NCBI RefSeq assembly: GCF_022601715.1
Contig: NZ_JAKVIM010000004.1
Location: 1 to 64,000, forward strand
Direction: 5' to 3'
Length of the DNA: 64,000 bases
Source of the DNA: Acinetobacter zhairuonensis
GTDB taxonomy: Bacteria; Pseudomonadota; Gammaproteobacteria; Pseudomonadales; Moraxellaceae
Below, piece after piece: positions 5,418-58,822 of the stretch. The translations under genes were made by a program, and so were the position numbers. Every line of letters begins with the position of its first letter. The first letter of the stretch is position 1. The notes under the pieces are model-generated. The model was not told where the DNA came from. It saw only the letters and a list, made by a program, of their open reading frames with translations, and made no database searches.

Positions 5418-6830
5418 TTAGAAAGACACCATTTTACCCGGATTCACCATCGCCCCCAAACTATACGCACTTTTCGCCATCGGAATCACCACAGGCGCTA
5501 AGGCACGACCAAAAAAAATATCCTGATGCTGAATATGCGTCAGCATCTGAAAATCATCCGCCTGACCACAGAAGTCATCGGCAATCGCTTTACCAATCCG
5601 CACCGTCTGCGCCACACCATGCCCACTCCAGCCTTGTACCGCATAGATTGGGTATTTATCGCCAAACTTACGGCTATCGGCTGCGCCATTCATAGTGAGA
5701 TCGGTCGTCCCACTCCAAACAAAATCCAGTGCTACATTTTTAAGTTGCGGGAACACGTGCTGAATCCGCCCCAATAAATATTGATGTGTCTTTTCTGGGG
5801 TCCAGCAAGAGCCTGTACCTTCCCCTCCAAATAACAAGCGGTTCTGAGATACACCACGGTAATAGTCAATTTGGAACTGGGTATCGTACACAGGCGTATC
5901 CGACGGCAATAACTCTTTTAAGTCTACTTCCAGCGGTGCTGTGGTGCAGACATAGGTATAAAACGGAATGGTGGTTTGGTTATGCTGTTCTAACAGCTTG
6001 AATGATGCATGATGCACTGCCATGACGACACTCTTACGTGCCTTAATCACGCCAGCTTGGGTCGTGACATAGATGCCATCTTCACGTTCCTGTACCGAAA
6101 GTACTTCGGTTTGCTCGTAGATCTTGCCACCATTCTGGCAAAATCCATAGGCCAAACCGCGATTCAATGCCAAAGGATGAATCTGTCCACCTAAGCTGTC
6201 CAGCAAACCGCCAAAATAATTATCCGAATTGACATGCTGCAACAGCTCATGTTTCCCCACCACATGGGTATGATCTTCACCTAAATATTTACGTGCATCG
6301 GCAGCTTGGGTGAGTGCCACCAAATGCCCTTCGTGCACCGCTGCGGTAATATGCCCCTGCTTACGCTGTAAATCGAGCTCGTAACGCGCTGCAATCTCAT
6401 CAATTAAAGTCATGGCTTCAGTCGAAGTAAAGTGCCACAAACGCTTAGCTTCGGCATAGCCAAAATGGTGAAGCATTTCTTCGGCTTCCCAACGCGCCAA
6501 ACCTGGGGTAAGTTGACCACCATTGCGTCCTGATGCCGCACCACCAATTCGATTTTTCTCGACCAGAACCGTCTCCACCCCTTGTTCCGCTAAATGCAGT
6601 GCTGTTGAGGTTCCAAGTAAACCACCACCAATCACCAGCACATCGCAGACAATATCGGCATTCAGTGCATCAAAACGATGCCAGTCTTGCAATGAACTTT
6701 CATAATAGTTGGCAGGATGCTCAAACTGCCCACGTGTATCAGGAATCCAGTTCCACTCTTTGCCACTTTGTGGCTGATGGCTGGCTTTGAATTCCACATC
6801 TTCTAGAAATTTTGGCTTATTGATTTGCAT
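5418..6830 (-). CDS. PuuB-like FAD-dependent amine oxidase (DAO family)
   Basis: About 470 residues. The FAD-binding GGGLLG lies at residues 68-73 and is followed by ASGRNGGQL, and the C-terminal FAD loop is VQGWSGHGV. Homology runs along the whole of gamma-glutamylputrescine oxidase PuuB, which oxidises glutamylated putrescine to the aldehyde. The N-terminus is about 45 residues longer than PuuB. ATG 6830 is preferred over GTG 6842 because GAGAG lies six bases upstream. It is the second gene after the PuuP-like importer, 36 bp away. No puuA, puuC or puuD is in the window, so the exact substrate is an inference. Confidence 0.82.
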   Translation of the reverse strand: MQINKPKFLEDVEFKASHQPQSGKEWNWIPDTRGQFEHPANYYESSLQDWHRFDALNADIVCDVLVIGGGLLGTSTALHLAEQGVETVLVEKNRIGGAASGRNGGQLTPGLARWEAEEMLHHFGYAEAKRLWHFTSTEAMTLIDEIAARYELDLQRKQGHITAAVHEGHLVALTQAADARKYLGEDHTHVVGKHELLQHVNSDNYFGGLLDSLGGQIHPLALNRGLAYGFCQNGGKIYEQTEVLSVQEREDGIYVTTQAGVIKARKSVVMAVHHASFKLLEQHNQTTIPFYTYVCTTAPLEVDLKELLPSDTPVYDTQFQIDYYRGVSQNRLLFGGEGTGSCWTPEKTHQYLLGRIQHVFPQLKNVALDFVWSGTTDLTMNGAADSRKFGDKYPIYAVQGWSGHGVAQTVRIGKAIADDFCGQADDFQMLTHIQHQDIFFGRALAPVVIPMAKSAYSLGAMVNPGKMVSF

Positions 6831-6866
6831 ATTTTCTCTCACTTCTCTTAGATCTACACGTCAACA

Positions 6867-8198
6867 TTAATAGGCATTGCCAATCACAATATTTTGCTTT
6901 TTCAGTTTCTTATAAATAAAGATCACGATGCCGACTGCCAGCCATGCCAGACCAAACATCAAGGCTGATTTTTCGAGGTTGAACCAGAGGCATAAAATAG
7001 CCACTACAGAAATGAGCGGTAAGAACAGGTTTTTAAATTTATTGTTCCAGCCCTGACGTTGCTTCTCGTGTACATAAAATTTCATAAAGACCGAGAAATT
7101 GACGGCGGTAAAGGCAATCAAAGCGCCAAAACTGATCATGCTGACCACGGTTGCCAAATCCAGCACGATTGCCAGCAAGCAAATCACACCGATGCCCAAC
7201 ACGGCATATAACGGCGTACCCAATTTACTGTGCACCTGACCCAAAGTGCCTTTATGGAAAATGCCGTCACGTCCCATAATATGTAGCAAGCGCGATGCAC
7301 TGGCATGGGTGGCCATACCTGAAGCAAAGGTATTCATAATTTGCGCGCAAAGGAAAACCGCTTGGAACAATGCCCCCCCGACATACATGACAATTTCAGG
7401 TAAAGCCGCATCAGGATCTTTGAAGCGGACATTGCTCGGAAAATACAGCTGAATAAACCAAGATGCGGTAAAGAAAATCACCCCACCAATTAAAGTGGTA
7501 TAGATCACTGCACGTGGAATGGTTTTCTTCGGATCTTTGGTTTCGTGCGACAAAGTGGTGACGGCATCAAAACCCAAGAAAGAAAAACAGAGGATGGAAG
7601 CACCCGCAATCAACGGCAGAATTTCAGGATTACCATTGAACAACGGCGCCATGGTCAGTACATGCTGATAACCTTGGTCATGTCCTACACCTTGAATGAC
7701 CAGATAGACGAACAACAACATCAACACAATCGGAGCGAAGACAAAAATCAGGCTCAAATTCGCCAGCAAATTAATTCTGAAACAGTTAATCAGGGTGACC
7801 AAAGCAGTGAACAGCACCACCCATGCCCAGTACGGAACAGCTGGGATCACGGCTTCCAAATAAATACCTGCCAGCAAAGCATTAATCAATGGCAGTAAAA
7901 TATAGTCCAACAAGGCACACCACCCGACAAAGAAGCCTGCCTGCGGACCACAGGTTTCAGCCGTGTAGCTATAGGCTGACCCAGGTTGATCACTGACCCG
8001 ACTAAAACGGGCATAACTGATTGCAGTCAGCAGCATGGCAAACAGTGCCAATAAATATGCCAGTGGTACACGACCTTCCGTCACCCCCGAGACAATACCG
8101 AAGGTATCAAAGACAGTCATGGGCGTCATATACGCTACACCAATAATAATGACCTGCCATAAAGACAATGTTCTGAAAGAAACCTCGGTTTTTTTCAT
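6867..8198 (-). CDS. PuuP-like APC-superfamily putrescine/amino acid importer
   Basis: A 443-residue permease with about 12 membrane segments. Long stretches correspond closely to E. coli PuuP, for example TPMTVFDTFGIVSG near residue 25, CFSFLGFDAVTTLS near 200 and FKDPDAALPEI near 255. It is therefore probably a proton-coupled putrescine importer. It is first in a two-gene transcript with the PuuB-like oxidase. The promoter region is shared with the divergent IS630-type HTH gene. Confidence 0.85.
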   Translation of the reverse strand: MKKTEVSFRTLSLWQVIIIGVAYMTPMTVFDTFGIVSGVTEGRVPLAYLLALFAMLLTAISYARFSRVSDQPGSAYSYTAETCGPQAGFFVGWCALLDYILLPLINALLAGIYLEAVIPAVPYWAWVVLFTALVTLINCFRINLLANLSLIFVFAPIVLMLLFVYLVIQGVGHDQGYQHVLTMAPLFNGNPEILPLIAGASILCFSFLGFDAVTTLSHETKDPKKTIPRAVIYTTLIGGVIFFTASWFIQLYFPSNVRFKDPDAALPEIVMYVGGALFQAVFLCAQIMNTFASGMATHASASRLLHIMGRDGIFHKGTLGQVHSKLGTPLYAVLGIGVICLLAIVLDLATVVSMISFGALIAFTAVNFSVFMKFYVHEKQRQGWNNKFKNLFLPLISVVAILCLWFNLEKSALMFGLAWLAVGIVIFIYKKLKKQNIVIGNAY

Positions 8199-8239: not shown

Positions 8240-8267
8240 TTGCAACAACTATGCCATATAATATAAA
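8240..8267 (+). promoter_or_regulatory. Candidate promoter of the IS630-type HTH gene
   Basis: TTGCAA (8240-8245) and TATAAA (8262-8267), separated by 16 bp and 29 bp before the start codon, in a very AT-rich divergent region. Confidence 0.45.
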
Positions 8268-8296: not shown

Positions 8297-8656
8297 ATGC
8301 CGAGATACTCAATGGAAGTGCGAAAAGCCGCAATTCAAGCCTATAAAATTACCGACTACAAAGTGGCGGTGTGCAAGCAATTTAACATTTCACGGGTCAC
8401 TTTGGATGCCTGGATCAAGCTCGAAGAAGAGACGGGTGACCTTGTCCCAAAGCCCAGCGATAAACGTGGTGCACCCAGTCACATTAAAGATTGGACAGAA
8501 TTTCAAGTCTTTGTAAAGAAAACAAAATTTCAGAATATTAGCGATTTAGTTCCCTTATTTGAACAGGAATTTGGCTATAGTGTTTCTTATGCCGTGTTGG
8601 TTCGTGCCATCCATGTTTTAGGTTTGCGCAGACGTCGCGGACGCTATTATGCTTAA
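8297..8656 (+). CDS. Solitary IS630-type helix-turn-helix protein
   Basis: A 119-residue basic protein resembling the N-terminal DNA-binding part of IS630-family transposases (HTH_Tnp_IS630). A first HTH is at about residues 8-36 (VAVCKQFNISRVTLDAWIK) and a second putative one at about 75-110. It ends in an arginine-rich tail, RRRRGRYYA. No DDE catalytic part follows in any frame and no terminal inverted repeats were seen. It is thus a remnant or, more interestingly, a domesticated DNA-binding protein. A 22-bp tandem array begins 65 bp after its stop and could be its binding site. Confidence 0.7.
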   Translation: MPRYSMEVRKAAIQAYKITDYKVAVCKQFNISRVTLDAWIKLEEETGDLVPKPSDKRGAPSHIKDWTEFQVFVKKTKFQNISDLVPLFEQEFGYSVSYAVLVRAIHVLGLRRRRGRYYA

Positions 8657-8721
8657 TCCACTGTTACTTATATTTTAAATAAAATCACTTTATAAATTTA
8701 AAAAAATAACTGTACATATAT

Positions 8722-8868
8722 GTAAAGTTAATTTATTAAAAAAGTAAATTATAATTATTAAAAATGTAATTTTATTATTATAAGAAAGTACATTATAAAT
8801 ATTAAAAAAGTAATTTTAAATTATTAAAAATGTAAACTATTTATCAAAAAAATGTACATTTGATAAAT
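8722..8868. repeat. Seven-step 22-bp AT-rich tandem array (iteron-like)
   Basis: The motif GTA(A/C) recurs at 8722, 8744, 8766, 8788, 8810, 8832 and 8854, exactly 22 bp apart each time. The following part of each unit resembles TTATTAAAAA(A/T). Units 2 and 5 match at 19 of 22 positions. The array is bracketed by TGTACAT at 8711 and 8853. Its last step lies inside an inverted repeat, ATTTATCAAA (8839-8848) and TTTGATAAAT (8859-8868). There is no spacer class, so it is not CRISPR. Phased A-tracts at about two helical turns predict curved DNA. Confidence 0.85.
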
Positions 8869-8956
8869 GCACAACGTAAAGCTAGTTCGCTTAAACCGTC
8901 CAGCTTGAGGCAATCCCCTGACAAGCAATGGTGCATGTGGACTCGGAATTGGGCAA

Positions 8957-8985
8957 AAAAAAGAGTGGCTTTCGCCACTCTTTTT
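8957..8985. terminator. Terminator hairpin
   Basis: Stem AAAAAGAGTGGC/GCCACTCTTTTT with loop TTTC. It ends the minus-strand thrB-CSD-membrane protein transcript and may also stop reading from the array side. The rest of the gap 8869-9032 holds no recognisable feature. Confidence 0.85.
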
Positions 8986-21193: not shown

Positions 21194-22417
21194 TTATAAA
21201 CTACGGGCAATCACCAAACGCTGAATATCGCTGGTACCTTCATAAATCTGACAAATGCGGGCATCCCGATAAATCCGCTCAATCGGGAAATCTTTCAAGT
21301 AGCCATAGCCACCAAAGATTTGTAAAGCGTTGGAACATACCCGTTCCGTCATTTCCGAAGCAAACAGCTTCGCCATCGACGCTTCGGTTAAACACGGCTG
21401 CCCTGCTTCTTTTAAACGCGCTGCCTGATGTACCAACTGACGCGCTGCCGCAATTTCAGTCGCCATACTGGCTAAACGGAACGACACCGCTTGCTGCTCA
21501 AAAATCGGTTTGCCAAATGCCACGCGCTCCTTGGCATAACGGGTCGCTTCTTCCAAAGCTGCTCGAGCTAAACCCACCGCCTGTGCGGCAATGCCAATGC
21601 GTCCACCTTCTAAATTGGACAAGGCAATTTTTAAGCCTTCACCCTCTTTGCCTAACAGCAGGCTTTTGTGTACCCGCAGATCAGTCAAGGCAATTTGGCA
21701 CGTGTCCGAAGCATGTAAACCGAGTTTTTCCTCGATGCGAATCACTTCATAACCTGAGGTATTGCGTGGTACCAAAAAGGCACTCATCCCCTTTTTACCC
21801 GCCGCAGGATCCGTTACCGCAAACACAATGATCACACCTGCATTATGTCCTGAGGTAATAAACTGCTTGGCACCATTAATCACATAATAGTCACCATCTT
21901 TCACCGCGCGGGTTTTAATTGCAGCAGCATCGGAACCGGTATGTGGCTCAGTTAACGCAAATGCACCGATCATTTCACCTTTGGCTAAAGGCACTAAAAA
22001 TTGCTGCTTTTGCGCCTCGGTGCCATATTTCAAAATTGGTACACAACCCACTGAATTGTGCACACTCATAATGGCCGAGGTTGCACCGTCCGCAGCGGCA
22101 ATTTCTTCTAGCGCAAGCACATAAGCCAAGTTGCCTGTGGCTGATCCGCCCCATTCTTCAGGCACCAACATGCCCATAAAACCCAATTGCCCCATTTGCT
22201 GTAACGCTTCTGCGGGAAAAATGCCATGTCGATCCCATTCACTGGCATAGGGTTTGATCTGTTCTTGGGCAAAGCTTTTTGCCATATCTTGAATCAAAAC
22301 TTGTTCTTCAAAAAACATACCCTGTCGATCCCACTCACTGGTATTCGGTTTTATTTGGTCTTGGTCAAAGCTTTTCGGCATGTCCTGCATCTGGACTTGT
22401 TCTTCAGTGAATTGCAT
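21194..22417 (-). CDS. Acyl-CoA dehydrogenase (isobutyryl-CoA type) with duplicated N-terminus
   Basis: A 407-residue FAD enzyme. The catalytic glutamate is in [11 protein letters not shown] near the C-terminus. Context suggests isobutyryl-CoA to methacrylyl-CoA. Residues 3-34 and 35-66 are tandem copies of the first helix region (offset 32 residues), so the protein is about 32 residues longer than usual. The inner copy keeps the normal residues ([13 protein letters not shown]), while the outer one is altered ([13 protein letters not shown]). ATG 22417 has GGAAAGG upstream. An internal ATG at 22318 would give normal length but has a poor ribosome site. Confidence 0.93.
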
Positions 22418-57704: not shown

Positions 57705-58571
<867 letters not shown>

Positions 58572-58805: not shown

Positions 58806-58822
58806 AGCACCATATTGGTGCA
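58806..58822. promoter_or_regulatory. NtrC-like palindrome (or minus-strand hairpin terminator)
   Basis: AGCACCATATTGGTGCA matches the NtrC enhancer form TGCAC(C/T)A-N3-TGGTGCA at all but one position. On the minus strand the same hairpin is followed by five T, so a terminator is the alternative. Confidence 0.45.

Follow-up and report, generated by a model that had tools for sequence, protein, structure and literature searches.

A probably domesticated IS630 DNA-binding protein and its neighbouring 22-bp array: candidate architectural elements at a sigma54-type permease operon of Acinetobacter

The window, as we call the whole stretch of 64,000 nucleotides analysed here (Acinetobacter zhairuonensis, contig NZ_JAKVIM010000004.1), contains a gene for a solitary IS630-type DNA-binding protein (F0), an array of 22-bp units 3' of it and, divergent from F0, an operon encoding an amino-acid permease (F2) and an FAD-dependent oxidoreductase (F1). 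A sigma54-type promoter faces F2; an NtrC-like dyad and a terminator-like hairpin lie beyond the array (Table 1).

Table 1. Position and basis of the features of the locus in the window.
Feature	Position	Strand	Basis
F1, FAD-dependent oxidoreductase (DAO family), second gene of the divergent operon	5418..6842	-	Pfam DAO, E=4e-57
F2, APC-family amino-acid permease, first gene of the divergent operon	6867..8198	-	Pfam AA_permease, E=3e-35
Sigma54-type -24/-12 promoter TGGCATAGTTGTTGCA, facing F2	8241..8256	-	regular expression for the -24/-12 consensus
F0, solitary IS630-type bipartite DNA-binding protein, 119 aa	8297..8656	+	ORF, homologs, HMM matches
Array of 22-bp units	8722..8856	+	consensus TTAAAAA-N-GTAAA-n-T, AT-only middle
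NtrC-like dyad TGACAAGCAATGGTGCA	8919..8935	.	9 of 14 to consensus, weak alone
Terminator-like hairpin closing the F0-array-dyad stretch	8958..8985	+	1 found, 0.7 expected in region shuffles

Within the array, GTA marks at 8722, 8744, 8766, 8788, 8810, 8832 and 8854 follow one another in exact 22-bp steps, as the sequence-only reading of this DNA had claimed, and an eighth in-phase GTA was found at 8876, just outside the AT-rich stretch. The longest in-phase chain thus counts eight marks, and a maximum of five (2 of 5000) was reached in order-2 Markov shuffles of a 190-bp stretch in which any period from 8 to 69 was allowed. The first mark lies 65 nt 3' of the F0 stop codon, and the open reading frame of F0 bears out the distance given earlier between a 119-residue protein and the start of the array. 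TRF detected the array at periods 22, 44 and 66. Across 35 loci, 227 units consist of nearly nothing except A and T (6% G, 3% C); because these units were picked by their GTA, the GTA column is ascertained in the unit statistics. As we read it, the PWM of the array unit shows no dyad. Predicted curvature was weakly above that of shuffled sequences (mean z -0.98 in 16 of 36 arrays, one of them below -2), and intrinsic curvature was accordingly dropped as a conserved property of the arrays. Isolated copies of the unit elsewhere in the same genome were also discarded as a candidate: TTAAAAANGTAANNT gave five matches, four of them in the array, versus eight for the reversed control. In IS630 ends, a GTA lies some 22 bp inward of the tip; descent of the array from IS630 terminal repeats was rejected on negative PWM scores in a comparison that covered the left ends of five elements on one strand.

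Other repeat features were observed alongside. In several loci (e.g. window 8722-8856) endings of the TTAAAAAT type often alternate with endings of the ATAAAAAA type from unit to unit, which produces a super-period of 44 bp; TRF scores periods 44 and 66 above 22, and autocorrelation is 0.64 at 44 versus 0.60 at 22. About 10 bp ahead of the first unit stands a TGTACAT palindrome (window 8711-8717), common to several loci and possibly an inverted boundary site of the array. Elsewhere in the window, TRF reported two 96-bp tandem copies with an 80% match (22227-22406).

F0 matched the NCBIfam IS630 transposase model NF033545 with E=1.8e-7 and 30.9 bits, under the curated cut-off of 100, which applies to the full-length protein. 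Since the alignment is confined to model positions 6-118 of 299, the catalytic (DDE) half is missing from F0, in agreement with the earlier description of a DNA-binding part of an IS630 transposase with no catalytic domain. All 19 rows of our alignment A1, in which one locus is present twice (L075 and L002) and which hence covers 18 distinct loci of 37, match the N-terminal DNA-binding region of NF033545 with E <= 0.001 (best 2.8e-8). Pfam searches with E up to 10 returned three HTH-type families and BT_2262-like_C for the 119-residue protein, all below cut-off, and the sigma54-interaction domain PF00158 (AAA+) was absent from these matches. The AlphaFold2 model of F0 (pLDDT 78.5, pTM 0.41) has two three-helix (HTH) units and a C-terminal hairpin. 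With this model, Foldseek gave no match reaching E 0.001, the top three being Pax paired domains, and a second structural comparison gave middling values (Pax 1pdn Z 7.8, Tc3 Z 6.3, CENP-B 1hlv Z 5.1), the best of which is at a level common among models with no clear match. The only sequence relatives of F0 among solved structures under 0.01 were poxvirus scaffold proteins, which were taken as chance and set aside.

Orthologs of F0 (70-100% identity, one per genome) are present in 37 of 175 Acinetobacter genomes and absent from 138; all 37 are exactly 119 residues long and share 57 invariant positions. When 348 genomes of the family were searched, E<1e-60 was reached in the same 37 genomes only, the next best match being 1.9e-35, and just two other genera had matches, at 1.4e-12 and 4.5e-9; a scan of named genomes returned 30 F0 loci, in Acinetobacter only. 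The species concerned include A. ursingii, tandoii, schindleri, bouvetii, brisouii and populi, and further A. puyangensis, terrae, apis, boissieri and kanungonis. Among 72,556 plasmid records, 25 contained any match and none a relative of at least 60% identity. The median dN/dS of F0 was 0.059 over 55 usable pairs of 666 (611 pairs fell outside dS 0.05-1.2), indicating that F0 is under strong purifying selection. Two-ORF IS630 elements of the genus carry an OrfA about 45% identical to F0, followed by OrfB. Matches to this IS-type OrfA are multi-copy in G021 and G069 (22 in G069), compared with the single F0 ortholog per genome, and tblastn revealed no OrfB at the F0 locus (L074). These sequence comparisons strongly support the view that F0 arose by domestication of the DNA-binding domain of an IS630 transposase.

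Further solitary proteins resembling IS630 OrfA (115-124 residues, starting with MRAYSLDLR or MRVYSLDLR) form a second set, noticed at L111, L112 and L113 (loci of G191, G176 and G064) and at L174, L178 and L179. At L111-L113 the gene order is conserved, and the proteins are encoded divergently from two neighbouring genes for YadA-like surface proteins (by eye). No OrfB was found for this set, and no array within 400 bp on either side of the members tested; a second, independent domestication is possible.

Across genomes, an array lies just 3' of F0 in all 36 loci with enough sequence, the contig of the remaining locus (L084) stopping 71 nt past the F0 gene. Runs of GTA at 22 bp, with 3-10 marks, were found within 900 bp 3' of the gene in 35 of the 37 loci when the genus was searched for both protein and periodicity. 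At L107 (A. apis) the 22-bp grid is kept with GTA and GTC alternating. Three solitary F0 homologs at 46-50% identity that were examined have no 22-bp GTA run. A strict AT-rich array pattern matched 24 of the 37 genomes with F0 and none of the 138 genomes without it (175 in total), and every place among the matches listed is an F0 locus; the sensitivity of this pattern is 24 in 37, and the window's own array escapes it. Independent occurrence of protein and array, which had been named in advance as speaking against the pair, was thus looked for and not found at this sensitivity. In a set of 144 genomes, 20 of them with an F0 ortholog, five GTA spaced by 22 bp were matched in 25; sorted by eye, 13 were AT-rich arrays at the F0 locus and 12 were other repeats elsewhere. 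One genome without F0 (G023) gave 2979 five-GTA matches, the places of which are known for part of them.

The phase of the arrays is nearly fixed: 188 of 205 spacings between successive PWM sites equal 22 bp, and 197 of 205 are multiples of 22 (nine being 44 or 66). In 15 close array pairs, substitutions affected GTA in 6 of 357 positions (1.7%), the A-run in 45 of 714 and the linker in 225 of 1190 (19%). The same pairs had three indels within arrays, a rate of 1.5 per kb (sizes 1, 22 and 22 bases), versus 31 in the flanks, 11.2 per kb and none of 22 bases; the indel comparison used array limits unfiltered for phase, and the 15 pairs are not independent. Spacings, substitutions and indels indicate that the GTA marks and the 22-bp phase are constrained and the linkers are not, which upholds the proposal that the period is kept while the sequence between the marks drifts. 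Recognition-helix positions 34 and 38 of F0 are changed in A. apis alone among the 37 orthologs, and A. apis is the sole one of 36 loci with no GTA run; helix changes thus appear to covary with changed marks, in a single case that is the right one. Because the 37 loci share descent, linked conservation speaks for selection on each part, not for joint action. The pairing of a domesticated IS630 DNA-binding fragment with the adjacent array, put forward in the sequence-only reading and seen in 36 of 36 loci with enough sequence, is strongly supported by these genome comparisons.

F1 and F2 lie beside F0, divergent from it, in 37 of 37 loci, and F1, F2, F0 and the array stay together in seven loci whose outer flanks both lack the usual neighbours. 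F0 and its array therefore belong to a fixed module with the divergent permease and FAD oxidoreductase. Elsewhere in the genus, F2 homologs occur in other clusters, often with aldehyde dehydrogenase-like and GntR-type regulator genes (by eye). Distances of F0 correlate with those of F1, F2 and the flanking gene F4 (r 0.72 to 0.80; one F2 of 37, at L091, was left out of the F2 distances), in keeping with joint, mostly vertical descent. The permease gene at L091 (G021:C1) is split by an inserted IS630 element with OrfA and OrfB. At L144 (G066:C7), an IS5-like transposase (by eye) replaces promoter motif, F0 and array, and F1, F2 and downstream genes remain; since all three are replaced together, this genome does not separate them. 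F1 had no match among solved structures at 1e-20. The intergenic region between F2 and F0 contains no conserved site of the array type, the matches there being scattered (best 9.1, in one locus).

The module, the promoter and the dyads described below had escaped the sequence-only reading. An alignment of the F2-F0 intergenic region shows, by eye, a single strongly conserved block, which reads TGGCAY...TGCA towards F2. We assigned it to F2 as a sigma54-type promoter by the consensus that we take to be TGGCA/GG-N10-GC. The motif is present in 37 of 37 F0 loci versus 2 of 20 F2 homologs in other contexts (L145 and L162); L161, a partial F2 gene, cannot be judged. In this genome, two amt genes also have a motif of this form ahead of them. 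As a lone match in 64 kb the motif is within chance (0.63 expected), and it is notable for its fixed place across loci, not for its occurrence in the window. In the window, 465 bp separate the -24 element from the first array site, which lies upstream of it. For the promoter and dyad tests we chose 22 representatives by eye so that each group of similar loci supplied one, and this distance is 461-467 bp in 10 of the 22 (range 398-487). Helical phasing between promoter and array was considered and is not supported (R 0.38 at 11 bp, 0.19 at 10.5). Sigma54 needs an AAA+ activator. This genome has four strong matches to sigma54 activators, two of which adjoin histidine kinase-like genes (by eye), and one of these kinase-adjacent activators was read, again by eye, as NtrC.

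Beyond the array, dyads were scored against TGCACCA-N3-TGGTGCA, which we assume to be the NtrC consensus. In the 120 bp past the array of 36 loci (L084 was dropped from these tests, its contig ending too early), the mean best score was 9.6 of 14 versus 7.60 (sd 0.15) in 300 base shuffles; a spacer of 3 was best among 0-8, and the half-site TGCACCA ranked first of 420 permutations. In the 22 representatives this half-site again ranked 1 of 420 past the array; ten control windows from these loci gave ranks of 30-402. The helical phase between dyad and array gave R 0.65 at 11 bp (rank 1 of 420), with 10.5 bp third, and phasing at the full 22-bp period was weak (rank 42 of 420). The dyad test was set up after TGGTGCA had been noticed in several loci and the phasing test after the distances had been noticed, and the loci share ancestry, which limits how these statistics are to be read. 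Five of the 36 loci have no dyad scoring at least 9 within the tested 120 bp, and in the window nine other sites outscore the dyad of Table 1 (eight at 11-12, one at 13). Scored over the entire 1.4-kb stretch, most loci were not clearly above shuffles, the excess being found in the post-array window only. TGCAC-N7-GTGCA dyads in the same genome were rejected as a candidate (two places, fewer than the control), and the amt loci of G000 offered no clear NtrC dyads for calibrating the consensus. Taken across species, the comparisons indicate that NtrC-like dyads are enriched past the array and helically phased with it; the activator binding there may be NtrC. The strongest dyad of the window, 13 of 14, lies at 58806-58822 with weaker ones around it, upstream of a gene (57705-58547, minus strand) whose product has class D beta-lactamase-like motifs STFK, YGN and KSG (by eye).

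The co-occurrence of F0 and array, the fixed phase, the selective constraint, the module, the promoter motif and the enrichment and phasing of the dyads are all read from sequence, and together they suggest a mechanism. F0 would bind in head-to-tail order along the 22-bp units that follow the F0 gene, at about one molecule per two helical turns and on nearly one face of the DNA; a bipartite F0, as modelled, gripping about two turns would fit the 22-bp unit. Because the array sits between the sigma54-type promoter (about 465 bp off in the window) and the enhancer-like dyads just beyond, F0 on the array may act as a dedicated architectural protein that sets the DNA geometry through which an enhancer-bound activator reaches Esigma54. 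By setting this geometry, F0 would tune the nitrogen-responsive uptake and oxidation of a presumed amino acid or amine. We give about an even chance to the reading that F0, coating the array, governs looping between enhancer and promoter of the permease operon in an IHF-like role, and we lean slightly towards F0 helping the loop over F0 blocking it. A bolder form of the proposal, which we regard as doubtful, holds that F0 polymerises on its own phased array and joins an NtrC-type enhancer in one helically phased complex, such that the output of a nitrogen-scavenging operon is set by loop geometry and not by a ligand-sensing repressor; this would be a locus-specific, IS-derived counterpart in mechanism to CENP-B on its boxes.

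The main rivals of loop control are autoregulation and silencing. F0 and array might be purely autoregulatory, with a roadblock or feedback on the gene's own transcription from its 3' region and no direct effect on the permease operon. The array follows the F0 stop on the same strand, with the terminator-like hairpin on its other side in the window, and the shared intergenic region is free of a conserved site, as this explanation would have it; it leaves unexplained both the union of F0, array, F1 and F2 in 37 of 37 loci despite changed outer flanks and the phasing of the dyads to the array, and we judge it unlikely. Similarly unlikely, in our estimate, is a local silencer or insulator, in which F0 on the array forms an AT-rich nucleoprotein filament that blocks enhancer-promoter contact or spreads over the operon. 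The position of the array between enhancer-like dyads and promoter and the A+T content of its units would suit such a filament, whereas dyads on the same helical face as the array suggest contact rather than insulation. That another protein binds the array (an enhancer-binding protein, IHF or an H-NS-like protein) with F0 a mere neighbour is improbable: the genome does encode candidate sigma54 activators, and A-tracts alone could draw general nucleoid proteins, but the strict array pattern, which catches 24 of the 37 genomes with F0, matches none of the 138 lacking it, the species with changed helix positions also has changed marks, the unit PWM is free of a dyad and predicted curvature is only weakly above shuffles.

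Among the functions offered in the sequence-only reading, that of a regulator is the one we favour, because F0 and array are always found with the divergent permease/oxidoreductase operon and its sigma54-type promoter; a partition, nucleoid or incompatibility element is not supported and is, like a role as RNA, unlikely. A protein with an array resembles ParB-type or iteron systems in outline, and in the seven genomes, of 11 searched, for which the distance was measurable, dnaA is about 173-243 kb away from the locus (two distances assume circular contigs). Shared synteny can explain this closeness. No partition or replication gene was recognised among the window neighbours, neither the ORFs between 4 and 14 kb nor HMM scans of four of them besides F0 showing a recognisable ParA or Rep partner; the outer context varies between loci, most Acinetobacter genomes lack an F0 ortholog and the plasmid records hold no close relative, so that we consider a chromosome partition, nucleoid or incompatibility element very improbable. 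The least likely of all is that the array acts as RNA in the 3' untranslated region of the F0 mRNA. In the window it does lie between F0 and a hairpin on the same strand, yet its fold energy is unremarkable (z -1.56, with 15 of 200 shuffles as good), and a phase of two DNA turns next to a gene for a DNA-binding protein points to DNA.

Loop control by F0, if correct, suggests that a captured transposon part now helps to control a nutrient-uptake operon. A bacterial case in at least 37 species, with a likely target array adjoining the gene, would open to study both the conversion of a transposase into a host factor and the effect on sigma54 looping of a strictly phased array beside an enhancer. 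The natural variants, namely arrays of 3 to about 11 sites and the changed helix and marks of A. apis, are ready test material. The statement that no system of this form has been described also stands in print as far as our search reached: a description of an F0-type protein, its array or the arrangement was not found in the literature searched, most subscription papers lying outside its coverage.

Several known systems resemble single aspects of the locus. F0 is homologous to the DNA-binding domain of IS630/Tc1/mariner elements (Acinetobacter IS630 OrfA, Tc3, Mos1) at the identity to OrfA given above; unlike IS630 elements, it is a single copy in a fixed module with neither catalytic part nor OrfB, and it has an array in place of terminal repeats, the array PWM being unlike the five IS left ends scored. 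Plasmid Rep iterons are tandem direct repeats of about 22 bp beside the gene of a DNA-binding protein, and the F0 array is alike in repeat length and in adjoining such a gene. Near-perfect 22-bp repeats were matched by the five-GTA pattern in other contigs of the genus; compared with iterons, the F0 units are diverged, with only marks and phase kept, and no Rep gene was recognised beside F0 in the window. TldR-type proteins are transposon-encoded proteins turned host regulators; F0 is likewise transposon-derived, but from another transposon family, with its own array and no guide RNA proposed. At sigma54/NtrC promoters, IHF and other architectural proteins have sites between enhancer and promoter, which the F0 array resembles in position and in its proposed role in loop geometry, whereas F0 is unrelated to IHF, one array was found in the genome with the five-GTA pattern and several phased sites take the place of one bend. 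In eukaryotes, DNA-binding domains of domesticated transposases are known to occur together with arrays of sites: CENP-B and Pax have host-reused DNA-binding domains of Tc1/mariner-superfamily transposases, and CENP-B is bound in tandem arrays. CENP-B with its box, and Pax, are alike in outline to F0 in the reuse of such a domain by the host, with middling Z scores; the F0 system differs from CENP-B in being bacterial, in its 22-bp spacing and in its association with a metabolic operon instead of a centromere.
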